From positions 1 to 52,994 of IMG/VR virus record IMGVR_UViG_3300035703_000126: a stretch of 52,994 bases of DNA; one strand, written 5' to 3'. The DNA is from a virus. Below are positions 32,500 to 52,422 of the stretch, one piece after another; the first letter of the stretch is position 1; each line of letters starts with the position of its first letter. Both the position numbers and the translations under genes were made by a program. The notes under the pieces were generated by a model that did not search any database, was not told the origin of the DNA, and was given only the letters and a program-made list of their open reading frames with translations.

Positions 32500-34449
32500 A
32501 TGCCAGTCCGCTTTCTGGATTCGAGCGTCACGTCGCTTCTCAGTGCGCTGATGAGGGACAGCGGCGTGGATCTTGGCTCCCAGCCGCGATGGTCAAACTC
32601 AACGTCGTTTTACGGTTCTGATCGCTTGCCGATGGCGGCGCCACCTTCAAATGCAATCGCACCTCAGAACGATTATTCGCCGGAAGCACGACAGAGACGG
32701 GCGGCAGCCGCGCAGCAAATGGCTCTCCAGCAGATGGATATGGAGCTGCAGGCGGCGCGAATCGCCAACGCGCAGGCAGAAACAGCCCAGCGAGCGGCCC
32801 TGATGGCGCAGCCGAGAACTGGAGGTGGAGTCGGCGGATCAGCAGGAATGATGGCTGGTACGCAGAAGCCGATGACTCCGGCCGAGTACCGGACGATGTA
32901 CGACCGGGCGGTTGAGAAGCAGCAGTCACAGGCCAATCAACTGAGAGCACGACTGCGTGCTGGTCAGATCAGTCCGGAGATGATTAAGCAGCAGGGCTTC
33001 GATGTTCTTGAGCGTCCCGCAAACGATGAAGACGTAAACGCCGGGCAGGTTGATGCTATTCGCAATGGCGTAGCGTACCGCTACGACCTGTTTCCATTGG
33101 GCGGTGATGCTGCGATCAATCGACTGATGCAGGATGAATTGCGGGCGTATCAAAACTTCATCTCTGGAGGAAATCCAGAGGCCGTCAATCCTCCTGATAT
33201 CGTGAACCAGCCACAGCCTCCCGGCCAGCCGGGCGGCATTCAAGTTCCGCAACCGCCGGCTCCGCCGGGACCGCAGCCGCCTCCAGAGCAGGCTCAGTTT
33301 CAGCAGCGGCGGCAGGCCTGGCAGCAGATGGTCGAAGCAGCCGACGCGGAAGGAAAGGAGTTCACGCCGCAGCAGCAGGCGACGCTCAAGACGCTGGACC
33401 AGCAGGAAGCTCAAATCCTTAAAGACCCACGACTCAGCGGCACGGACCGCAACCGGGCGCTGCTGTTCATTCAGGAAGCCAGGGAGCGACTGACTCCCGA
33501 TCAGAAGAAGATGACCCCGCAGCGGGTGTATCAGGAAAAGGTTATGGAGTTGCCGGACGGCAACAAGGTCACGGTGAACCAGCACGGTCAGCCGGAGATC
33601 ATGATGCCGCCGGCGGACAGCGTGCAGAGACGCGAGCGGGAACTGGACTCGAACATCCGCAATTCCGCGATGGTCGAATGGCAGAAGCTGCTGGACCGTG
33701 GATTCGACGCGGCTCAGGCCACCGCGATCATCGAAGACTTGTTCAAGATTGAGCTGCCGCTTCAGATGCGGTCCGCCCCGCCGTTGCCTGCACCGACTCA
33801 GAGCCAGCCGGCGCCCGCACCGGCCGCGATGCCGGAATCATCTCCGACTGCACCTGGAATGCCGATTCGCCGGCAGACGCTGATGCGATCGGACATGAGC
33901 GGCGTGCCGATCGAAGTGGATCGCATGGCAGTTCAACAGCAGGGAGAAATGCCGCCGGATGTCGCACAGTACATCAACGAAATGATGCAGCGGCCGACTG
34001 CCGGCATTGGCGGTCCGCAGCCGGGCATGGCCCCCGTGATTACGGATGTCGAAGCGGCAATGCGTGCCCGGCCGGCTCCCGCGTCGATCGGAGGTCCGAT
34101 GGGAGTTCCGCAGTCCGCCGTGGAAAGCGCGGTCGGAATCAACCGCAGCGCGCCGATGCCGCCGGCTGGTGCGAGACCGGGAATGCTGAATGACGGCACG
34201 GACCCGTTCGCTCCGAAGACCGATCCTTACGCGAACATGCCGGCCGACCTGCAGGAACTCGGCCGCATGAAGGACACATTCAAGCAGTTCCGGGACGAAA
34301 CGCGGGACCGTCCAATCCGAAAAGCGGCGGCAGACCTGTTCAATCTGAAGAAGAAGATCGCGGCGGGGCAGAAGCTGACTCCGCAGGACATGCAGGTGCG
34401 CGACCGGGCCGTTGAGTTTCTCATGAATGAGGGAGTGCTGTCGCCATGA
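32500..34449 (+). CDS. Putative internal virion protein, Pro/Gln-rich
   Basis: A 649-residue protein. It begins VRFLDSSVTSLLSALMRDSG, then has a Gln/Ala-rich coiled coil (RRAAAAQQMALQQMDMELQA), Pro-rich spacers (PPAPPGPQPPPEQAQF), and a helical C-terminus (DLQELGRMKDTFKQFRDETR). Its stop overlaps the next ATG as ATGA, so it is coupled to the giant polyvalent protein. Long low-complexity linkers joining short helices suit a protein threaded through a narrow tail. No enzymatic motif is visible. Confidence 0.5.
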   Translation: MPVRFLDSSVTSLLSALMRDSGVDLGSQPRWSNSTSFYGSDRLPMAAPPSNAIAPQNDYSPEARQRRAAAAQQMALQQMDMELQAARIANAQAETAQRAALMAQPRTGGGVGGSAGMMAGTQKPMTPAEYRTMYDRAVEKQQSQANQLRARLRAGQISPEMIKQQGFDVLERPANDEDVNAGQVDAIRNGVAYRYDLFPLGGDAAINRLMQDELRAYQNFISGGNPEAVNPPDIVNQPQPPGQPGGIQVPQPPAPPGPQPPPEQAQFQQRRQAWQQMVEAADAEGKEFTPQQQATLKTLDQQEAQILKDPRLSGTDRNRALLFIQEARERLTPDQKKMTPQRVYQEKVMELPDGNKVTVNQHGQPEIMMPPADSVQRRERELDSNIRNSAMVEWQKLLDRGFDAAQATAIIEDLFKIELPLQMRSAPPLPAPTQSQPAPAPAAMPESSPTAPGMPIRRQTLMRSDMSGVPIEVDRMAVQQQGEMPPDVAQYINEMMQRPTAGIGGPQPGMAPVITDVEAAMRARPAPASIGGPMGVPQSAVESAVGINRSAPMPPAGARPGMLNDGTDPFAPKTDPYANMPADLQELGRMKDTFKQFRDETRDRPIRKAAADLFNLKKKIAAGQKLTPQDMQVRDRAVEFLMNEGVLSP

Positions 34450-37400
34450 GCAGGCTGAGTCTGTCCGGTCTGGCGGATCTGTATCCGGAACGACAGCAGG
34501 GGCAACCAGCCCGCGATTACCGGATGCAGCCGCAGCCGGGTGGCAGGCCGTTGTCCGTGGGTGGCTATGACCTCGTGTCGCCGGACATGCGTGACACGGC
34601 CGCGCAGGACGCCGCGATTGCCGAACAGGCTCGTCGCGCGGATGCACAGCAAAAGGAACTGGATCGACTGTCCTGGTGGGAGCGGTTCAAGAACATTGGG
34701 GCACGACTCGGCGCCGGCATGAACCCGGACGCTCAGGTGTCACCGGCGGAAATGCCGCTGCCCGATCCGCAGGCAGAAGCCGCGCGAATCATGGAAGAGC
34801 AGCGGAAGGAGCAGGTCCGGAAGTCGAGTCCGTACTACCAGCAGGCGTTGATCGAACTGCAGGCGGAAGACCGGCTGAAACGGCTTGATGCTCAGTACCA
34901 GCGTGAAGCGGATGAGCGGCTCAAGGGCGTCGGACTGCCGCGCATCGGTCTGCGTCCCGGCCAGCAGCCGCCCACGATGGGCCAGGCGATGGCGGAGGAG
35001 ATCGCTCAACGGACCCGCGAGGACCGGGCACGGGAGTCCGGCTATCAGTACGAGACCGGGGCACTGGCGGAAGACCCGTTTGGACGCACTCAGATGCGTT
35101 CCGGAACGCCCGGAGAGAGTCCGCAGTATCCTTTGCTGCGTGACATCGGCATGGGGCTGAGAAACGCTGGCGGTGCTCTCGGCTCTGTGGCGCTCCGGAT
35201 GTTCGGATCGGACGATCTGGCGAATCAGGCGCAGGCCTACATTGAAGGCCAGCGGATGCGTCAGGAGCAGGAACGAACCGGCGACCGATTTCCGTCCATG
35301 ACTCGTGCAGCGGCAGGAGCTACGGAGTCGGCGGCAACGCTTCTCGGAGCCAGTGCTGTCGGCGGGATGCCGGCCGTGATCGCCACCTACGGCGCGGAGG
35401 CCTTCGATCAGGGGCTGTACGACGCGAAGCAGGCCGGGCTGGTTGGAAACGACCAGTTGCGCTACGCAGCCGGCGAGGCGGCCATTGCGAGCCTTGTGTC
35501 GCCGATCATGGATCGACTCGGCATGTCCGGCGTTGAGAAGGCGGCGATGGCACAGCGCGTCGCCAATCGGACGATGCGGAATGCCTTCGGAAACCTGGCA
35601 AAGACGGAGGCCGGTGAATTTGGTCAGGAGCTTCTGGAGCTGTCGCTGTCGTCCGCATTGCAGGCGGAAACCGGCGTCGATCCGCAGGCACTGGAACTCA
35701 GCACGTTCATGCCGCGAGTGGCTGATACGGCTTTGACGACGATGCTGACAGTCGGCGCCGTCGAGTCCCCGAACATTGCAGCGGCAGTGGATCGGTTCAT
35801 CCGCGAGCCAAGCCGGAAGAACTACGCCGGCCTGCCGGAGGAAATCCGCGCGCCGCTGGGCGACACCGTGAAGTCCTCGGCGGACCGGCAGCGACTGGCC
35901 GAACAACTGATCGCGAATCAGACGCCGCCGCAAACGGAACCGCTTGAAACCGCTCGAAACCGCTCGAAACCGGAGGAAGCACTTCAGCCCGGCGTTACTT
36001 CGCCGCCGGGACCGTCCGCCGGGAGTCCTCAGCTACCGATGGGGACTCCCGGTGTCCAACCAGAAGATCAAGGCGTCCCGTCTCAGGTTCCAGTTCTCAG
36101 TCCCGGAGAGGAGGTGATCGTTGATGAAGAGCGGATGCAAAGGGGGCCGGAAGGGCGGCAAAGGGAAGTAGTCGCGCCACCGGTTCCCGATCCGACAGAG
36201 CAGGCCGGCGGCATCCCCGTCGCCGCCGAGCCTGCTGCTGCTCCTGCTGAAACAGCTCCCGCGCAATGGATGCTGACTCCGGAAGACACTGCGATCGCTG
36301 AGAGGGCTATTCGCGACGTGATCAGGGCTGGCAAGCCGCGCATCCAGGACGCGGATGTCGATGATCTGACCGGCAAGGTTCTCGATGTTGTCGCGACGCA
36401 GTTTTCTCCGGAGCGTGGGAACCTGCGAAACTACGCGCGGAAACTTGCGAAGAATGCCCGAACGACCTTCATGCGAGAGCGGCAGCGCGGTCCTGAGCAG
36501 ATGCCGGAAGGTGTTACCGATTCTGGTGCAGTCGATCCGGCGATCGAGGCGCAGATCAACGAACGCGCCCGGGCGGAAGGCATCGACATCAACGTGCCGG
36601 AAGTCCCCGATGTGCCGCAGGTCGGCAACGCGCCGCCACAGCCAGATCCCGGACAGGCGGCAACGGACATGCCGAAGATCAGGGCCAACAACGTATGGGT
36701 CGGACAATCCGGTCCCGTGCGGATCAACAGCACCAAAGGCGGACTGGTGACATTCAAACCCGTTGGCGCCGCAGGGGAACCGCAGACCCTTCCGGAGAAT
36801 GAGTTCCGCCAGCAGTACACTCCACGCGGAGCGACCCAGCCACCAGCCCAACCCGTCGAACCAGTCACGACTGAAAGACCGCTGTATGACCGAGCGGTTG
36901 ACTTTGCTGTCGGCAAAGGTGTCGTGAGCACTGGAATGCTGCAAAGGGAGTTTGGACTCGGATACACCGGCGCGGCACAACTGATCGACCAGATGACAGA
37001 CTCTGGCGTGATCGCCCCATCAACCGGAGCGCAGGAGCGAAAGGTATTGCTGACTTCAGCACCGCAGGCAGTCGCTCCACCAGCACAACCTTCCGTGCCG
37101 CCCACAGAGCAGCCGCAACAGGCAGGACTGCAAACGCCTTCCCCGCAACCGGTGGACACGATCGCCGGCCGGATGGATCTGACTGAGTTCGAGACGAAGG
37201 GGTACGCGCCGGAGCAGGTCACGCGGCAGGACTGGATCAACCTGCAGAGGGCTGAGCGTCGTCGGCTGGGGCAGCCGGAAGAATCCGGGACGCAGTACGC
37301 TCCGTTTGCTGACTACGAAGAGTTCCATCGCGACGCTGTCAGGCAGGCAGTCGCGCGCGGCGATGAAGTTGATCCCCAGGTTCTGGCGGACTATCCCGAT

Positions 37401-40400
37401 CTGGCTCCCGCGTCGTCGGCCGTCGAGCCGGAGAAGACGATCGGCCAGCAGGCAGAGCCGGAGTCACAGCCAACTCCGGCAATAAGCTTCGAGCAGTTCG
37501 CCGACGCGATGGAGCGATCTGAACGAGGGGCGAAGCGTGATGGATCACTGGTGTCATTCGGAGACCTCCGGCGAGAAACAGGCCTCAGCAAGCCGGACTT
37601 CGACGCAACCGTCCTGCGATTCAAAGCGGAGGGCAAGCTGAATCTGCACACCGACGACTTCCCCGGCAACAGAACTGCCGAGGAACGTGAGCGGTTCATC
37701 CCAACAAAGACAGAGCGCGGCGACACATACTTTCTTGGCGCGTCAATCAGCGAAACTGCGCGCGACGAACTGGCCAGGCAGCCGGCTGCCACTCCACAGG
37801 CCACACCGGAGGCGACTCCTGCGCCGCCCGCCGAATCGCCGCAGAAACCAGTGAAGCCGCGAACGCCGGGCAAGCCACTCAATCGCACGCAGAAAGATGC
37901 AGCCCTGCGGCATCACTTCACGCCTGGAAAAATTGTCCCGTCATACAGCGGACAGGATCGGGTGATCGCATTCAATCCGGGCGGCCCTGAGTCCACATGG
38001 AGCGTGGACGTGCAGGCTGTTGACGAAAGCGGTACTCCTATCGAGGGCGAGGTTGTTCGACGGCACGGCACGGAGCCGGACGCGAAGACGCTCCTGAAGG
38101 CCTACGATGATCTGGTGGCATCGCAGCAGGCAACCGCCCGGCCGACAGAGCCAGAGGCGAAGCCCGCCAGGAAGAGGAAGGAATCACCAGAGCGGGAACC
38201 ATACCGCAGGACAACTGACGCATCGCCGGAAGGGCGAGCGCTGCTGCGATCACAAACGGAAGCATATCGTGACAGAATCACTGAGCTTGAGCCTCGGCTT
38301 AAAGATGCCAGAAAACGTCTGGCCAACACGCGATCTAACGCACACAAGAAGCGAGGCGAAATTCAGACTGAGATCAACGAGATCGAAAACGAAATAGGCC
38401 GATGGAGACGCATGGAGCAAAAGGCGGCAGACGAGTACCGCCGTGCTGCAATTGAGGACGCGATGGAGGATCCGAAATCAGACCTGCATCGTCAGGCTGG
38501 TCTTCGCGAACTCGCCATGCTCGATTTTCGGGAGGCGGAACGGCGAGGTGCAGATGCCCGCGAGAAACGAGATCGAGGGTCGTATGACGCGGCCATGAAG
38601 CAGATGAGCAGCCTGGAAGACAGAATCCGTGCGATGGATCACGATCTTGAAGCTGGGTTTTCTCAGATCGCCATTGAAAGGCACGGGGATGCTCTGACTC
38701 CAAACGAGATCGCATCAGTCGCATCGCTGTCAAAATATGACTTCAACGTGGATTCGCGAGGCACTCCGGAATCAGTCATCGACAGTCGCGCCGAAGAACA
38801 GATTGCCGGTCGCAAGAACAACGTGAGCCTGGCGGATATCAGCGGGCTTCCTGAGGATGATCGGCAACGGCTGGAAAAGCAGATCGAGGATGACCTGCGA
38901 AAGAAGGAGTGGCACGAAACCGTTACGCGAGTGCGGAATGAGGCGTCTGAGATTGCCAGAACCGCACGAGAGGAATCACAGAAGCGGAAAGCGAAGGAGG
39001 CGCAGGAAGCTGCTGAGGAGAAAAGAAAGTCAGATATTGCAGAGGCCAAAGAGAAGTATGCGCAGCGCAAGTCAAGCTCCACCGAACTGCGATACTGGAA
39101 GCAACTGAAGGAACGTGCCAGCAAGATCAAGACACAGAAGGATGTGTCAGGAAAGTATGGCGACGATGCTGTGAAAGGGGACGCCGTCGGCGAGACCTGG
39201 CTAATTTACGCCGCCGGAAAGGGGGATTACGTCCTGATTCACCGTCCATCCGGCATTGGAGTGACGCACGCCACGAATCCGAGCAACGCTAAACAGCTCA
39301 TTTTGATGCTGGAAGACGCCGGCATTGATATGTCGAAGTACGAAACGGCCGACTCTATCCCGGCAGATGTCGCGAAGCTCGCCGGGCAGATCGTTCGCGC
39401 ATGGGATAATGAGGACTTCCAGCAGATCACCGACGATGGGAAGCGTGGCGATATTTTGTCGCGAGTCCAGAAGCCTGATGTTGGGGTGAAGTTCGATATC
39501 GAAGTCGATGCGGCTGATGTTGAGAGTGCGAAGAAGATTGGAAGTAAATCTGCAGAGCAGCGACTGCGAGAGTTTGTCCGCGAGGTTCCGGAGTTCGGCT
39601 ACAACCCCGTCTTCACGGTGGATGACAACAAAAGACTGGTCTTCAAGGATGGTTTCAAGTTTGCGCTGAACCCGGAATTATTCGGGATCGACGCCGACAT
39701 TCTGGAGCCGGGATTTCGCGTTGCCGTCAATCTGGAAGACATTGGCATCGCGCGGCCGACTGCCGCCGAAGTCGTGAAGGATGTGCTGAGCCGCGAATTC
39801 AAAGTGACCAAGAGCGGTCCATCCGTGTTCGCCGTCAAGCCGCTGGATAAGCCCGATGGTCCGGCTGTCGTGGTTCGACAGGGCAGCGGAGAAGAATGGA
39901 TCGCCGGAACCGGATCGGACGCTCCGCACTACGCACGAGTCGAACAACTCCTGAAGGGCATCCCGTGGCGGGAAAGCGAGCAGGTTGCAAAGAACGACAA
40001 GGCGGCCGACGCCGACGCACAAGAGTCGCTTCCGCCAGTTGTCGCCGCTCCATACAAGGATGACTTCGCAAGGATTCTGCCAGTTTTAGACCGTCAGGTC
40101 AGGGCGGAAATCAGCCCGAATAAACAGAAGACTATTGCCATCAGCCACATGGATGGCGAGCCGCCGGCAATTCAGCGGGCTATTGCAGAACGCCTGCAGC
40201 AAATTGCTCCGGATGCGGTTCGGAGTGCCATCGCTCAGCCAAAGTCTGTTCCGATTGGCATGATGGCTCATTTCAGGGCGGTCACCACTGAGCTTGACTC
40301 TGAACGACCTGGTGGATCATCGGCGGTCGGAATGCCGGCGAAATCATCGAAGCCGGTTCCCGCTGTGCCACGGGACATGCCGCTGTTGTTGCCGCCGGCC

Positions 40401-43400
40401 GGAGACACCGGGAAGCCTGTGGCGATCCGCACCATCATGAATGCTCTGGAGCAGGCGGTATCCCTGCTCGGCAATGAAGTGCCGATTCGCGTCGGAAAAA
40501 TGTCGCAACGAACGGCACTCGGCATCTTCAAGGTTCACGATGAAGTCGCGCGCATCCGAGAAGCCAACGACCTTGAAACGGCCGCTCATGAAATGGGACA
40601 CGCCATCGACAAGTTGATCAATGGCTGGCCTAAGGGTGGACCGTGGAAAACGCCGCGAGTGCAAAAGCTGGTGCAGGATGAACTGACAGCAATCGGCCGA
40701 TCCCTCTACGTCGATACCGCGCCAACCGGAGGATACAAGCGCGAAGGCTGGGCGGAGTTTGCCCGGCTGTGGCTGACTGATCCGGAGTCGGCCGCGAAAT
40801 TTGCCCCACATACGTCGGAGTGGTATCGAGACACATTTGAGAAGGCGTATCCGAAAGCCGCTGCGGCTCTGCGGGAAGTGCAAGGCATGATTACGAAATG
40901 GAGAGAGCAGGGAGCGAAAGCACGACAGAGTACGGCGATCATCGACACCGGCAGTGTTCCGCAGAGAGTTGAGCGCATTAAAAAGTGGGCAAAGCACGCC
41001 GTCAGCATGGAAGCCCATATCGAGATGCTGGAGCCGCTGTGGGGTTTGGCCAGAGAAGCCGAGAAGCGAACTGGCAGGGAGCTGGCTGCGACAGACGATC
41101 CATACGCTATCGCGGATGCCTTGCGGATGGTTCATCATGCGCGAGTCGAGACATGGGTTCGGCACGGCATGACCGACCTGGCCGGAATGCCGACAGGAGT
41201 GAAACCGCTCAGTGACGTCGGAAAGCTGATTCCAGAACAAGAGCGGAACGACTTTGTGCTGTATTTGTGGGCGAGACGGGCACTGGCCTTGATTCTCGAT
41301 CCCCGTGGCCCGCGAAATCCCGGCATGTCGCTCAACGAAGCGGAATACCTCATCGCCGAGCTTGATAACCCGCGATTCCGGGAAGCGGCGCAGATCGTGT
41401 ACGACTGGAATGATGGCGTTCTGGATTACGCGGCTTCTGCCAGTCCAGTGTTCGCTGATGTTGTTCAACGAATCCGTGCGCGTGATCCCGGCGCATACAT
41501 TCCTCTTGCCCGATACTTCCGGGAACTCGATGAGATTTACAGCCGGAGCGGTGGCGGCAACGACATGATGGGCACGTTGATGGGCAAGTTGCGAGGGTCC
41601 GGCCGGGAAATCAAAGACCCGATTCCGCAGATGATCGCCAACGCCACAAAGATGGCGCACGCGGCGCATGACCGCATGATTCTGGACGCGATTCAAAAGC
41701 TGTCCGCGAACGTGCAGGGGCTGGGGAAGTACATCGAGAAAGTGCCGCGCGATAAAGTTCCGGCGGCGGCCGTGTCCGTCGAGGAACTTCTGCGGACACT
41801 GGAAAAGAAACTGTCGGAGCAGGAAATCGACATGACACTGACTCGTTACGACGAGCCAGTTGAGAAAGAAGACCTTCAGGATCTGATTGGCGAGACAGTC
41901 ACGTTCTTTACGACGGCAATCAATCCGTCAGGTCCGTATCCGATCATGCCGATGTATGACGCGACAACGAAGAAGATTGAGTGGTTCTATCTCAACGGCA
42001 ACCTGTATCACGCACTTGGCGCCATCGAGATGGCGGGGCTTCCAATGATTGGAGGGTTCAATCTACTGGCTCCGCTGGCCGCATTGAATCGACTGCGGAA
42101 AGCGGGAACTGTCGGCTTGCGAGCGGCATTCCAGTTGTTCACAAACCCGACTCGCGATCTTCAGACACTGCTTCAGAACACGCAGTCGCGGGCGACTCTA
42201 CCTAAAGTCGCATGGGAGTACGCACGCCAGACTCTAGGTGCCGCATGGAATCTCCTGCCAGGAACCCAGCCGACATCGGCAATGCAGTTCTGGAGAAACG
42301 CGGGCGGGCATGTCGCGCAGATGCTTGGCGAAGATACAGCACGCACACGAGAGTTAGGCAGTGAGGTGTTCGGTAAGAAGTTCAGCCGGCGACTGCTGCC
42401 GTCGAACTGGTGGAGCAACGTCAAAGACGCATACGACATTTACAAGGACATCGTCCAGATTCCGGAAGCAACAGCCCGCGCCACTGAGGTGCAGTTGCTG
42501 ATGGACGAAATGGGCATCAAACCTGGGGACCGCATCACGCTGGAGCAATCCCTGCGGCTGCTGACGGCGGGCAAGAAGGTTACGGTGGACTTCAGCGCCG
42601 CCGGCGAGTTTGCGCGGGTCTGGAATCAGCTCGCTCCGTTTTACAACGTCGCCATTCAGGGACCGCGTTCTATGGTGCGAGCGGCGCAGAAGAACCCGTT
42701 TGTTTTCACCGTGCGACTGGCGCAGGTGGCTGCACTGTCCGCGCTGTTGTGGTGGCGGAATAAGGATGAGGAATGGTATCGCAAGCTGAACACACGGCTG
42801 AAGACGATGTACTGGAGCTTTCGATATGGCGATCAGGTCATACTGCTTCCCAAAGCATTCGAGAACGGTGTCGGAGTGGCCGGCTTTGTTGAGTCCATGC
42901 TGGATCAGCAGTACGGACAGAATCCTGAGGCCGTGACGGAGTGGTTTCACCAGTTTATGGAAACTGCCACCCCGAACTACATACCGGGCGTTGCCGATGA
43001 GGTTCTGGCTCAGGCGATGAATGAAGACCTGTTCTGGAAGACGCCGATTGAGTCGCCGGAATTGCAGCGCATGCCGCGTCATGAGCGATTTAATGAGTAC
43101 ACGTCAGGCGTGGCAAAGTGGCTCGGCAAAACCATGAAGTGGTCGCCAGCTCGCATTGATCACGCTTTGCGCGGCATTGCGGGACCAATGGCTGGAGATG
43201 TGACGAGAACACTTGATGAGATTGTCGGAGTCAGCACGAAGCGAACGAGAGAGTGGGAGCCGGCAGACCTTCCGGTGATCGGTAAGGCGTTTCAACGTGG
43301 CGGAATCCACGGAACCCGCACGGCGAACATTGACAGGCTGTATGAGCGGCGAGCGGAAATGAACCTGCGGTCAAACAGTAAGGAGAACCCGGAAACGCCA

Positions 43401-43796
43401 CAGCAGCGACAGCAACGGCTGATGTTGAATGATGCCGCAGAGGCGGTGTCGGATATCTATCAGGCGCGGCGACAAATGGAAAAGACAGAAGATCGCGGCA
43501 AGGCGACTGATGAAGCGGATCGTATCGCGACTGATGCGCTGAAACGCCTTGAGTCCGGGACGCTGCCGCCGGAGCGCATCGCCATCCTGGTCGAGAACGC
43601 CATCTCTGAGGGGAAGTCCGAGAAGGCTCAGCAGGAGTCCCGCGAGGCACTGCTGATCCTCAAGCAGTCAGGGCTGTCCGCGCGGGAAATCACACAGGCC
43701 TACACGAAGAAGAAGCGAGCGGACAAGGAGCGTGTTCTGCCGTCGAACCTCAACAGGCTGAGGCTGCGGCTGTCGCGAACGAAGGCCGAAGAATGA
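34446..43796 (+). CDS. Giant polyvalent protein (3116 aa)
   Basis: The largest gene in the window. In order: residues ~200-450 hydrophobic and Ala/Gly-rich, like membrane-active cores; ~608-690 a sigma-70 region-2-like segment (DADVDDLTGKVLDVVATQF, PERGNLRNYARKLAKNARTT); ~811-872 an FtsK-gamma-like winged helix (RPLYDRAVDFAVGKGVVST, LQREFGLGYTGAAQLIDQM); ~915-985 a block common in polyvalent proteins, ending VRQAVARGDEVDPQVLADYP; ~1250-1560 long charged coiled coils; a metallopeptidase motif AAHEMGHAID (H2048, E2049, H2052) with a downstream EGWAEFARLW likely giving the third ligand; and a C-terminal ~1000 residues of large-polyvalent-protein LPD38-like sequence (VTVDFSAAGEFARVWNQLAP, FYNVAIQGPRSM). 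Such proteins enter the host with the DNA. Translation couples to the gene before. Confidence 0.75.
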   Translation: MSRLSLSGLADLYPERQQGQPARDYRMQPQPGGRPLSVGGYDLVSPDMRDTAAQDAAIAEQARRADAQQKELDRLSWWERFKNIGARLGAGMNPDAQVSPAEMPLPDPQAEAARIMEEQRKEQVRKSSPYYQQALIELQAEDRLKRLDAQYQREADERLKGVGLPRIGLRPGQQPPTMGQAMAEEIAQRTREDRARESGYQYETGALAEDPFGRTQMRSGTPGESPQYPLLRDIGMGLRNAGGALGSVALRMFGSDDLANQAQAYIEGQRMRQEQERTGDRFPSMTRAAAGATESAATLLGASAVGGMPAVIATYGAEAFDQGLYDAKQAGLVGNDQLRYAAGEAAIASLVSPIMDRLGMSGVEKAAMAQRVANRTMRNAFGNLAKTEAGEFGQELLELSLSSALQAETGVDPQALELSTFMPRVADTALTTMLTVGAVESPNIAAAVDRFIREPSRKNYAGLPEEIRAPLGDTVKSSADRQRLAEQLIANQTPPQTEPLETARNRSKPEEALQPGVTSPPGPSAGSPQLPMGTPGVQPEDQGVPSQVPVLSPGEEVIVDEERMQRGPEGRQREVVAPPVPDPTEQAGGIPVAAEPAAAPAETAPAQWMLTPEDTAIAERAIRDVIRAGKPRIQDADVDDLTGKVLDVVATQFSPERGNLRNYARKLAKNARTTFMRERQRGPEQMPEGVTDSGAVDPAIEAQINERARAEGIDINVPEVPDVPQVGNAPPQPDPGQAATDMPKIRANNVWVGQSGPVRINSTKGGLVTFKPVGAAGEPQTLPENEFRQQYTPRGATQPPAQPVEPVTTERPLYDRAVDFAVGKGVVSTGMLQREFGLGYTGAAQLIDQMTDSGVIAPSTGAQERKVLLTSAPQAVAPPAQPSVPPTEQPQQAGLQTPSPQPVDTIAGRMDLTEFETKGYAPEQVTRQDWINLQRAERRRLGQPEESGTQYAPFADYEEFHRDAVRQAVARGDEVDPQVLADYPDLAPASSAVEPEKTIGQQAEPESQPTPAISFEQFADAMERSERGAKRDGSLVSFGDLRRETGLSKPDFDATVLRFKAEGKLNLHTDDFPGNRTAEERERFIPTKTERGDTYFLGASISETARDELARQPAATPQATPEATPAPPAESPQKPVKPRTPGKPLNRTQKDAALRHHFTPGKIVPSYSGQDRVIAFNPGGPESTWSVDVQAVDESGTPIEGEVVRRHGTEPDAKTLLKAYDDLVASQQATARPTEPEAKPARKRKESPEREPYRRTTDASPEGRALLRSQTEAYRDRITELEPRLKDARKRLANTRSNAHKKRGEIQTEINEIENEIGRWRRMEQKAADEYRRAAIEDAMEDPKSDLHRQAGLRELAMLDFREAERRGADAREKRDRGSYDAAMKQMSSLEDRIRAMDHDLEAGFSQIAIERHGDALTPNEIASVASLSKYDFNVDSRGTPESVIDSRAEEQIAGRKNNVSLADISGLPEDDRQRLEKQIEDDLRKKEWHETVTRVRNEASEIARTAREESQKRKAKEAQEAAEEKRKSDIAEAKEKYAQRKSSSTELRYWKQLKERASKIKTQKDVSGKYGDDAVKGDAVGETWLIYAAGKGDYVLIHRPSGIGVTHATNPSNAKQLILMLEDAGIDMSKYETADSIPADVAKLAGQIVRAWDNEDFQQITDDGKRGDILSRVQKPDVGVKFDIEVDAADVESAKKIGSKSAEQRLREFVREVPEFGYNPVFTVDDNKRLVFKDGFKFALNPELFGIDADILEPGFRVAVNLEDIGIARPTAAEVVKDVLSREFKVTKSGPSVFAVKPLDKPDGPAVVVRQGSGEEWIAGTGSDAPHYARVEQLLKGIPWRESEQVAKNDKAADADAQESLPPVVAAPYKDDFARILPVLDRQVRAEISPNKQKTIAISHMDGEPPAIQRAIAERLQQIAPDAVRSAIAQPKSVPIGMMAHFRAVTTELDSERPGGSSAVGMPAKSSKPVPAVPRDMPLLLPPAGDTGKPVAIRTIMNALEQAVSLLGNEVPIRVGKMSQRTALGIFKVHDEVARIREANDLETAAHEMGHAIDKLINGWPKGGPWKTPRVQKLVQDELTAIGRSLYVDTAPTGGYKREGWAEFARLWLTDPESAAKFAPHTSEWYRDTFEKAYPKAAAALREVQGMITKWREQGAKARQSTAIIDTGSVPQRVERIKKWAKHAVSMEAHIEMLEPLWGLAREAEKRTGRELAATDDPYAIADALRMVHHARVETWVRHGMTDLAGMPTGVKPLSDVGKLIPEQERNDFVLYLWARRALALILDPRGPRNPGMSLNEAEYLIAELDNPRFREAAQIVYDWNDGVLDYAASASPVFADVVQRIRARDPGAYIPLARYFRELDEIYSRSGGGNDMMGTLMGKLRGSGREIKDPIPQMIANATKMAHAAHDRMILDAIQKLSANVQGLGKYIEKVPRDKVPAAAVSVEELLRTLEKKLSEQEIDMTLTRYDEPVEKEDLQDLIGETVTFFTTAINPSGPYPIMPMYDATTKKIEWFYLNGNLYHALGAIEMAGLPMIGGFNLLAPLAALNRLRKAGTVGLRAAFQLFTNPTRDLQTLLQNTQSRATLPKVAWEYARQTLGAAWNLLPGTQPTSAMQFWRNAGGHVAQMLGEDTARTRELGSEVFGKKFSRRLLPSNWWSNVKDAYDIYKDIVQIPEATARATEVQLLMDEMGIKPGDRITLEQSLRLLTAGKKVTVDFSAAGEFARVWNQLAPFYNVAIQGPRSMVRAAQKNPFVFTVRLAQVAALSALLWWRNKDEEWYRKLNTRLKTMYWSFRYGDQVILLPKAFENGVGVAGFVESMLDQQYGQNPEAVTEWFHQFMETATPNYIPGVADEVLAQAMNEDLFWKTPIESPELQRMPRHERFNEYTSGVAKWLGKTMKWSPARIDHALRGIAGPMAGDVTRTLDEIVGVSTKRTREWEPADLPVIGKAFQRGGIHGTRTANIDRLYERRAEMNLRSNSKENPETPQQRQQRLMLNDAAEAVSDIYQARRQMEKTEDRGKATDEADRIATDALKRLESGTLPPERIAILVENAISEGKSEKAQQESREALLILKQSGLSAREITQAYTKKKRADKERVLPSNLNRLRLRLSRTKAEE

Positions 43797-46011: not shown

Positions 46012-46353
46012 TCATCCCCGCGTCATCTTCAGGAACTCGCCCGCTGAGGCCGGCACGGTGAAGCCGAAGATTTCCTTGAACCGTCGCGCGGACTCCGGAT
46101 CGCTGCCGATGAACTTCAGGATCGCACTCAGCAGCTTCAGCATCTCCAGCCACTTCCCGTTCAGGAACCGCACTCCGCTGCCGAGTGCCAGGCTGCCGGC
46201 CGACAGAGCGGCATACGTTCCGACGTAGGTGGCATACGGTCCGCTCGCCGACACGTTGCCCTCAAGCTGGATATGCGACGCGCCCGCCAGACCGCCGAAC
46301 AACGCCGCCAGAATCTGCAGAATCAGCGGCAACAGTTGAATCAGAAACGCCAT
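46012..46353 (-). CDS. Holin-like membrane protein
   Basis: A 113-residue protein with GGAG upstream of ATG 46353. The N-terminus is a long hydrophobic helix (MAFLIQLLPLILQILAALF) and a second weaker one covers ~45-60 (GTYAALSAGSLALG). The rest is soluble and helical (MLKLLSAILKFIGSDPE) with a basic end. Size and topology fit a holin-like protein that would permeabilise the inner membrane, but the assignment rests only on topology and on its place at the end of the exit block. Confidence 0.5.
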   Translation of the reverse strand: MAFLIQLLPLILQILAALFGGLAGASHIQLEGNVSASGPYATYVGTYAALSAGSLALGSGVRFLNGKWLEMLKLLSAILKFIGSDPESARRFKEIFGFTVPASAGEFLKMTRG

Positions 46354-46377
46354 GACCTGGGACTCCTTGCCCTGTGG

Positions 46378-46917
46378 TTACTTCACCCCGACCTCACGCA
46401 GTGCCTGCTGAGCTGTCGGACCGCCCGACTGCCACATCTGCGGCGCCCACGTTCTTCCGCGATACCGGATCGTCGGATACGACTCCGCCGGCTCACCCTT
46501 CACAACCCGCACCGTGTAGCCCAGCGCTCGGAAATCCGCGACCGCCAGATCGCACGCCAGGCAGCCATCCATCGACAACACCTCGATCACCGGCTTCTCG
46601 AACTCCGACGCCGAACGCAGAGGACGAGGATCGACACGAATCTGCGGCAACTCAGGCATGTTCCCGAAACGGTTTTCGGCAACACCGGAGCACCCACAGC
46701 CAGCCTTCCCGCAGCCGCATTCGCAGGTGTCAGCCGCCGGTGAACCGCCCCCCTCGTTGACGATCCGCCGCGTCTCCTTCACCTCGACCTGCAACTGGAT
46801 CGGGATCACCGTCGCAGCCACCGCGCCACCACCGCCCTCCGGCGGATTCACTCGCGGGATGAACGCCCCGCCGTTACAGCCGGCAAGAGCCAGCACCATC
46901 AGACTGATCCATCGCAT
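46378..46917 (-). CDS. Thioredoxin-like lipoprotein
   Basis: A 179-residue protein. A lipobox LALAGC (lipidated C14) follows a short signal peptide. Residues 65-76 are unusually Cys/Gly-rich (TCECGCGKAGCGCSG), possibly binding metal. The C-terminal half has a thioredoxin/glutaredoxin-like strand and CxxC: VIEVLSMDGCLACDLAVADF (C119, C122), then YTVRVVKGEPAESYPTIRYR with the cis-Pro-like segment. It would sit in the periplasm, anchored to a membrane, and might reduce or isomerise disulphides, or bind metal. Its position suggests a role near host exit or superinfection defence. Confidence 0.65.
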   Translation of the reverse strand: MRWISLMVLALAGCNGGAFIPRVNPPEGGGGAVAATVIPIQLQVEVKETRRIVNEGGGSPAADTCECGCGKAGCGCSGVAENRFGNMPELPQIRVDPRPLRSASEFEKPVIEVLSMDGCLACDLAVADFRALGYTVRVVKGEPAESYPTIRYRGRTWAPQMWQSGGPTAQQALREVGVK

Positions 46918-47102
46918 GATTCGTCACTCCCTTTGAGTTTGTGCGCTACGGCATGGTACTCATTAACGATCTGGTCCAACTGTTCATACACATTGGCCGA
47001 CCAGATCAACACGCAACTGCAATCCGGATGCCTCGCACACTCAGCACGCACAAGTTGCCCCGCAATGATTGCATTAACAATCTGCTCTCCAACGGATGGC
47101 AT
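46899..47102 (-). CDS. Hypothetical protein
   Basis: A 67-residue protein: VGEQIVNAIIAGQLVRAECA, a Cys/His segment (RHPDCSCVLIW), then helical sequence (ANVYEQLDQIVNEYHAVAHK). AGGGAAGGG precedes ATG 47102. Its stop overlaps the lipoprotein start. A small metal-binding protein is possible; no family recognised. Confidence 0.5.
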   Translation of the reverse strand: MPSVGEQIVNAIIAGQLVRAECARHPDCSCVLIWSANVYEQLDQIVNEYHAVAHKLKGSDESCDGSV

Positions 47103-47159
47103 GTCATTGCCCTTCCCTCACACTATCCGCCCGTAAATCCGGCTCCGGATATCGTCTAG

Positions 47160-47540
47160 TTAGGTAAACCGAAAAAACTCCAGCACATAGCCAGCTTCCG
47201 CCTGCTCTTCTTGTTTGGCGTACTTGCCGCTTTTGAGCTTCCTCAGATACACGACGGACGGACTCTCTGCTTTCCAGAAAGGAGCTACAACCCGCAGTAG
47301 CTTTACTGTTTCATCGCCGTCGGAAAACTCCAAAATGCCTTCTCTCGTGTCCCACTCGTCACCAAATTTCTCTTCGAGCTTATCCTGAAAAAGCGCAACT
47401 GTTGCAATTTCCCATTTTTTCCTACGCACCTCAGCTTCGATAGCAGCCTCTACGGCGGCGTCGCGAAGCCGTTCCACGAGCTGTTCGTCTACCTCGAAAC
47501 TGACTCCACGCATGCTATACACGCTTCGTTTTTTGTTCAC
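47160..47540 (-). CDS. Cassette-borne hypothetical protein
   Basis: The 126-residue protein starts at GTG 47540 (MNKKRSVYSMRGVSFEVDEQ). It is helical and charged (RRKKWEIATVALFQDKLEEK), with a beta-rich second half (ETVKLLRVVAPFWK, SVVYLRKL). Local codons are more A/T-rich than the neighbours. On this strand the frame begins about six bases after GTTAGGC and its TAA stop lies within ACCTAAC, the classic start and end of an integron gene cassette. No family recognised; cassette cargo is often of unknown function. Confidence 0.6.
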   Translation of the reverse strand: MNKKRSVYSMRGVSFEVDEQLVERLRDAAVEAAIEAEVRRKKWEIATVALFQDKLEEKFGDEWDTREGILEFSDGDETVKLLRVVAPFWKAESPSVVYLRKLKSGKYAKQEEQAEAGYVLEFFRFT

Positions 47541-47545
47541 GGCAC

Positions 47546-47630
47546 GCCTAACTAACGGTTGCAGCCGAGCCGCCTCATAGCTGCATGTGAGTCAAAGCCG
47601 TGGGCGGCGGCACAGCTGAACCTGGGCGTT
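47546..47630 (-). other. attC-like inverted-repeat site
   Basis: GCCTAAC (47546-47552) on the plus strand reads GTTAGGC on the minus strand. Arms GGTTGCAGC and GCCGCC (47557-47574) pair with GGCGGC and GCTGAACC (47603-47622) with one extrahelical base, around a variable middle, and GCGTT ends the element at 47630. This is the architecture of integron 59-base elements/attC. The far 3' GTTRRRY box is degenerate (GTTCACA), so it may be a relic. Confidence 0.45.
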
Positions 47631-48142
47631 CACAGAATCCACGGCGCCACGGTCACGTTCGGCAGGCGAGCCAGATCGCCAGGCGTCGTCTCCGCTGGAA
47701 CACCGAACTTCGGAACTCCGACCAGCATCAACGCGAACGCTGCCAGCTCCGAACAGAACCACCGCTCGGCGTGCAGGTCAGTTTTCAACTTCCACGCCCG
47801 GCTGATCCGACGCCACACCCACGAAAACGATCGCACGAACTGACGCGGCGAAGCGTACTCCTCACCGATCCGATGCAGCAGGAACCGCTTGATCTCCTGC
47901 CGCTGCTCGCCATCCAGCCCGTCCACCCGCCCGATCGCACAGTGACCGCGCCACTGCTGCCAGACATACGGCCGAACGATCCGCACGCCCTTGCCTTCGA
48001 GCGCCTCCACGATCCACAACTGGCCCTCGACCTCGACGAACACGCCGACGTGCGACCACTCCGACCCCGACCGCAGCCGGATCAGCCGCGACCACAGCCG
48101 CCTTCCGCTGAACAACGCCAGATCGCCCGTCCGTGGCTCCAT
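47630..48142 (-). CDS. C92-like permuted papain-fold amidase/peptidase
   Basis: A 170-residue protein starting MEPRTGDLALFSGRRLWSRL. EWSHVGVF (H31) near the start and RWFCSELAA (C130) near the end give the His-before-Cys order of permuted papain-like enzymes (YiiX/YaeF, C92 group, NlpC/P60 relatives), with VEALEG in between. These cleave amide bonds in peptidoglycan or related polymers. No signal peptide is seen, so release would need a holin. It is the best candidate for an endolysin here, but the substrate is unproven. Confidence 0.65.
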   Translation of the reverse strand: MEPRTGDLALFSGRRLWSRLIRLRSGSEWSHVGVFVEVEGQLWIVEALEGKGVRIVRPYVWQQWRGHCAIGRVDGLDGEQRQEIKRFLLHRIGEEYASPRQFVRSFSWVWRRISRAWKLKTDLHAERWFCSELAAFALMLVGVPKFGVPAETTPGDLARLPNVTVAPWIL

Positions 48143-52349: not shown

Positions 52350-52422
52350 CGGGCTGTAGTTCAGGTGGAGCAGAACATGACCAGACGTGGTCAAGGCGTG
52401 CGTTCGAGTCGCACCAGTCCGG
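52350..52422 (+). tRNA. tRNA with non-standard anticodon loop
   Basis: All arms pair: acceptor CGGGCTG/CAGTCCG with G73, T8-A9, D-arm GTTC/GAAC with A14, GG and A21, anticodon stem TGACC/GGTCA and T-arm GTGCG-TTCGAGT-CGCAC. The anticodon loop is only AGACGT (six bases; eight if the last pair opens), with no U33 at the expected place, so the isoacceptor cannot be named. It may be deviant, pseudogenised or non-canonical. It overlaps the first codons of the next ORF. Confidence 0.55.

Follow-up and report, generated by a model that had tools for sequence, protein, structure and literature searches.

A single integron-type cassette, with its gene reversed relative to the attC site, in a gene block of a metagenomic phage genome

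The window, i.e. the whole stretch of DNA analyzed here, is a 52,994-bp IMG/VR virus record, a metagenomic and possibly incomplete contig that encodes a serine recombinase as well as a major head protein and the large subunit of terminase. Between about 51.0 and 46.0 kb, genes are located on the minus strand with intergenic gaps of −19 to 32 bp; the single exceptional gap, of 527 bp, lies between a C92-type amidase gene (47630-48142, minus strand; Pfam PF05708, 1.5 × 10−6) and the next phage ORF, of 67 aa (46899-47102, minus strand), and contains a minus-strand ORF (47540-47160) and a hairpin. The GC3 values of the flanking genes are 0.76-0.81 on one side (46012-46917) and 0.80-0.83 on the other (the C92 and C1 peptidase genes). 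A search of the record for an integron integrase gave no TIGR02249 match, so that the record does not hold a complete integron, i.e. intI together with attI. Elsewhere in the window, a 3116-aa ORF (34446-43796) adjoins the structural genes, and ARAGORN reports, near the contig end, a tRNA-like gene whose anticodon is undefined (52350-52422).

Within the exceptional gap, a 469-bp inserted cassette (47160-47628, given in the plus-strand orientation of its attC) was delimited by core boxes at both ends, a match to an attC model, foreign composition and the arithmetic of the gap. The order on the plus strand is CTAG^TTAGGT, the reversed ORF, the R'' box GCCTAAC, the L'' and L' boxes and GGGCG^TTCACAG (cut 47628/47629), with the leading core G^TTAGGT (47159-47165, plus strand) and R'' being 387 bp apart. 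In the integrated state, the attC occupies positions 47546-47628 on the plus strand (R'', 47546-47552; L'', 47558-47565; L', 47615-47621), and the first base of R' is G47628; the extrahelical base, G47561 on the plus strand and C on the folding strand, lies within L''. At the right junction, GTTCACA (47628-47634, plus strand), the G comes from the cassette and TTCACA from the phage target. When 47160-47628 is circularized, the leading core is brought up against the opposite end of the cassette and R' is restored as GTTAGGT, which pairs with R'' at 6/7 positions; in the attC so rebuilt, the N5 and N6 spacers are canonical and the extrahelical base is in its usual place. Across the 53 kb, GTTAGGY occurs only twice per strand. 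The hairpin measures 83 nt as integrated, lengthening to 89 nt once R' is rebuilt, and contains one extrahelical base, in line with the inverted repeat of about 75 bases described in the initial annotation. Excision of the cassette in silico yields the empty site CTAG|TTCACAG, brings the 67-aa ORF to within 58 bp of the C92 gene and leaves the C92 stop intact. This TGA (47632-47630) is one base beyond the proposed cut, so the C92 gene indeed ends at the element, as had been noted, and the cut after G at a G^TT (CTAG^TTCACAG), with that stop preserved, has the form of an attG-type insertion.

The composition of the cassette is foreign to the surrounding phage genes. The GC content of the cassette body is 0.508, compared to 0.602 for the window, confirming the A/T-richness that was originally reported, and an equally low value is found in only 1.2% of 380-bp windows; the GC3 of the cassette ORF is 0.35, compared to 0.53-0.83 for the neighboring genes.

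Typically, attC sites favor the bottom strand. In the present case, the rebuilt bottom strand adopts the canonical attC fold at −19.5 kcal/mol (5/200 shuffles equally good), whereas the rebuilt top strand has no canonical attC fold (−16.9 kcal/mol, 60/200 shuffles equally good); the flaws in the stem are one T-T mismatch and one wobble pair. In recombination, too, the bottom strands of attC sites are the more active ones (PMC9892861).

The canonical attC pattern CTAAC-N5-GTTNNAGC-loop-GCTNAAC-N6-GTT was found at one place in the window and in 0/100 shuffles. Because the spacing in this pattern was picked with the window sequence and the aadA7 attC already in view, a stem-pairing test trained without the window sequence was added. 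The genome contigs were scanned with the pattern ending in GTTAG, which gave 120 loci, often arrays, many of them in known carriers of integrons such as Xanthomonadales, Methylococcaceae and Aquabacterium. From 43 bacterial attC sites at these loci, a covariance model was built here (it is not the IntegronFinder model). The covariance search, which the initial annotation had called for, returned a sole match in the window at E ≤ 10 (47546-47637, minus strand, 29.7 bits, E = 2.7 × 10−6); given that the training sites were themselves selected by the attC pattern, this test is only partly independent. As the model represents the bottom strand, a match on the minus strand means that the top strand of the attC is the plus strand. 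When applied to phage TJE1, the same model found no attC although published tools find attC there, so that the model is conservative and its counts are lower bounds. A stricter structural attC finder, employed for the array comparison only, misses the window's own site because of the wobble pair. An Rfam search yielded no match, and comparison with the 120 bacterial loci indicated no clear donor lineage.

The cassette ORF (47160-47540, minus strand; 126 aa) begins with GTG, with an ATG alternative at 47513, and reads against the attC and along with the phage block. As first described, it starts just past GTTAGGC (47552-47546), 5 nt downstream, and its TAA stop lies within ACCTAAC (47165-47159). 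The GTTAGGC next to the start represents R'' read on the opposite strand rather than a leading core, and the TTA of the actual leading core is the complement of the TAA stop. No clear ribosome-binding site precedes the start. No convincing relatives of this ORF were found in viral contigs, genome contigs, plasmids, phages, 48 integron-bearing genomes or 392 genomes of a single phylum; a suspected likeness to an ORF of L202 was not supported on comparison, and for the cassette as a whole the searches likewise gave no relative. AlphaFold run on the single ORF sequence gave a pLDDT of 42, too low to be informative. Our likeliest guess is that the product is a small phage accessory protein.

As the top strand of the attC is on plus and the site lies 5' of a minus-strand ORF, this is a reversed cassette. 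Integron cassettes typically, albeit not by definition, have the ORF and the attC in the same direction, whereas here the ORF is on the minus strand and the attC top strand on the plus strand. What stands of the initial annotation is a cassette-type insertion with an attC inside a phage gene block, but not the canonical order of core, ORF and attC on one strand. Several hallmarks of an integron cassette are present, namely, complementary outer boxes, the inner L'' and L' boxes with the extrahelical base and proper spacing, and the covariance match; with one attC in the window, the element is not a CALIN, which comprises at least two clustered attCs.

The minus strand, read by itself, does present GTTAGGC, ORF and ACCTAAC in a canonical-looking succession, and the locus might accordingly be a remnant of an ordinary array on that strand, in which the cassette preceding the ORF was lost apart from its attC, the present hairpin (R' GTTAGGC at 47552), and the ORF is in sense, its own attC having been deleted. 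We deem this very unlikely: the directional model matches only with the top strand on plus, the minus reading yields TGTGAAC as R'', at odds with RYYYAAC, and places the N5 and N6 spacers as well as the extrahelical base on the wrong sides, and there is no hairpin with a GTT box after ACCTAAC, whereas the plus reading accounts for both boundaries by one event. Neither of those boundaries would be called for by an ordinary phage gene behind a structured 5' leader, which is what the hairpin amounts to in the reading direction of the gene, and which has counterparts in similar leaders before genes in other phage contigs. Such a gene has no need for a matching GTTAGGT core at its far end or for G^TT junctions, its composition would not be expected to be foreign, and a leader leaves unexplained both the arrays that this element forms in other contigs and the two contigs (L147 and L159) that have the attC and leader in common in front of different genes; we regard this alternative as most unlikely. 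That the window is a metagenome-derived virus record raises the prospect of an assembly chimera between a phage contig and an integron fragment. This is exceedingly unlikely, given that both flanks consist of co-directional genes with similarly high GC3 and that the insert is bounded on both sides by exact recombination cut sites, which a random chimera would not produce.

The phage operon genuinely harbors one integron cassette, with its gene reversed, and very likely an integron integrase acting in trans put it there, at an attG-like site. In this scenario, the bottom strand of the attC of a circular cassette would fold and recombine with the attG-like G^TT located directly after the C92 stop, an insertion that would leave both neighboring phage genes intact. 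The integrase would presumably be supplied by the host, and the cassette by some donor. Being antisense to the attC but along phage transcription, the cassette gene is readable as a further cistron of the minus-strand block, and would probably be expressed by read-through, the attC hairpin serving as the leader and the core-box TTA providing its stop codon. There are precedents for the component steps: attC clusters occur in phages, and IntI1 recombined 5/6 tested phage attCs (PMC9892861); PMC12901181 and PMC11023631 cite Loot et al. 2024 (Nat Microbiol 9:228) for the entry of cassettes into bacterial genomes by way of attG sites. For the C92, C1-peptidase and lipoprotein-like genes, the searches returned no close relatives, and terminase relatives reach only about 31% and come without a C92 match; none with an empty site, or close and with the same flanks, was seen.

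Viral contigs were scanned with the attC pattern, allowing long and short loops and a free R', and about 100 further attC loci were identified, nearly all confirmed by the covariance model. Among cassettes with a confident ORF, the ratio of antisense to sense was 14:4 in viral contigs, the window included, vs 13:48 in bacterial ones, where the 13 include one artefact row; this excess was noticed post hoc, with the window among the data examined. A short-loop check sample, taken later, gave 10:1 (viral) vs 1:5 (bacterial; p = 0.005, with few bacterial cases). For cassettes bounded by two attCs, as delineated by the structural finder, the ratios were 26:17 and 17:77 (p = 2 × 10−6), with nine of the 17 viral sense cassettes coming from one locus with IntI (L210). 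The ORF calls behind these counts are naive, and shadow frames are long in GC-rich DNA; the contigs are partly related, and identical cassettes were dropped by exact sequence only. The most robust test involves no gene caller: an antisense frame that is closed by the core-box TAA and fills the cassette (at least 70% of its length and at least 50 codons) was found in 18/52 IMG/VR cassettes vs 6/96 bacterial ones (p = 2.6 × 10−5, post hoc); three of the bacterial six, all in L057, are artefacts of short intervals. The cassette in the window is one of these 18 viral reversed cassettes with the stop in the core, along with 17 others. A Shine-Dalgarno-like motif behind the attC was detected for 17/23 confident antisense viral ORFs and is absent in the window. 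A count of flanking-gene direction from naive ORFs was dropped because it was too noisy and misclassified the window itself.

Many attC cassettes, single or arrayed, with up to about ten per array, and mostly without IntI, are found in the IMG/VR loci L124-L170 and L174-L228, where the genes predominantly run against the attC, with the stop codon within the core box. IntI scored above the family cut-off in 4/50 attC-bearing viral contigs (L178, L190, L202 and L210), and in L178 and L202, reversed cassettes occur alongside IntI. Terminase or portal genes are present in the contigs of L131, L134, L147, L157, L159, L162, L176, L193, L209 and L225; many other contigs lack both by these two families, and some of them may thus be misclassified, non-viral sequences. 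In one contig with a portal-type protein, the ORF of a DNA methyltransferase overlaps a lone attC and reads against it (L153:6931-7797). The identity between L147:4553-4637 and L159:615-699 is limited to 85 bp that comprise the attC and the leader up to the ribosome-binding site, with unrelated flanks and, behind the common 85 bp, unrelated reversed ORFs. A near-identical attC, GCCTAACACTTCGTTCCAGCCGACCTACGGCGGCTGAACTCGGGC, recurs in at least nine viral contigs (L174, L177, L178, L181, L191, L200, L206, L213 and L227) with differing R' boxes (GTTAGGC, GTTATGC, GTTGGGC and GTTCAGC), and had no match in the isolated-phage collection.

Some of the reversed viral cassettes carry phage-type genes, namely, those for an RNA ligase (L225:4379-4921; phrog_14301, 4.9 × 10−70), a phage-type ATPase/kinase-like protein (L198:10959-11342; phrog_2071, 1.7 × 10−31) and a D5-like regulator (L140; 1.2 × 10−6). 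The RNA ligase and the ATPase/kinase-like protein are reminiscent of RNA repair and may point to a response to RNA-cleaving defenses. That integrons feed genes into phages, as initially suggested, is one possibility, but the contig lacks intI and phage-type genes occur in some of the other reversed cassettes, which makes a cassette pool circulating among phages at least as likely. We tentatively entertain the possibility that phages share an integron-type cassette pool of their own, in which an accessory gene is reversed to the attC, the attC is the 5' leader, usually followed by a ribosome-binding site, and the stop is in the core box; wherever co-directional phage genes have a G^TT between them, a landing site would then exist at which host integrases could add a ready-made cistron, and the cassette in the window would be a lone member of this pool.

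The proposed insertion offers a concrete route whereby a phage genome can acquire accessory genes one at a time, with precise boundaries and unbroken neighbors, and would add a phage to the bacterial chromosomes as targets of attG-type insertion. Should the reversed layout prove to be a real class, the integron cassette would be more than a bacterial stockpile, phages having an operon-suited version of their own, and the cargo, with an RNA ligase and an ATPase among the genes identified, may supply phage accessory or counter-defense functions. Because the stop codon is inside the recombination site, the reversed class can be scanned for directly.

Compared to integron gene cassettes with their 59-base elements, the present one shares the R''/L''/L'/R' anatomy, the extrahelical base, the G^TTRRRY boundaries and the compact single ORF, but the ORF is antisense to the attC, with its stop codon coming from the leading core, and the phage contig has no intI, attI or Pc promoter. 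Like the phage CALINs and attCs of Qi et al. 2023 (PMC9892861), it is a cassette with an attC in a phage that lacks an integrase; at least two attCs were a requirement in that study, whereas the window has one, and the gene is reversed. Among the phages described there, TJE1 and PH101 have same-direction arrays and P12002L has divergent attCs (PMC9892861). With the insertion at attG, as the Loot et al. 2024 work is represented in the papers citing it, the present case has in common a single cassette outside an integron at a G^TT; the target here is a phage genome rather than a bacterial chromosome, and the event is one that we infer rather than observe. In the open-access literature, we found no published report of reversed cassettes in phages. 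Phage-borne attC clusters and attG insertion have already been published, and it is the reversed phage variant that appears to be new.
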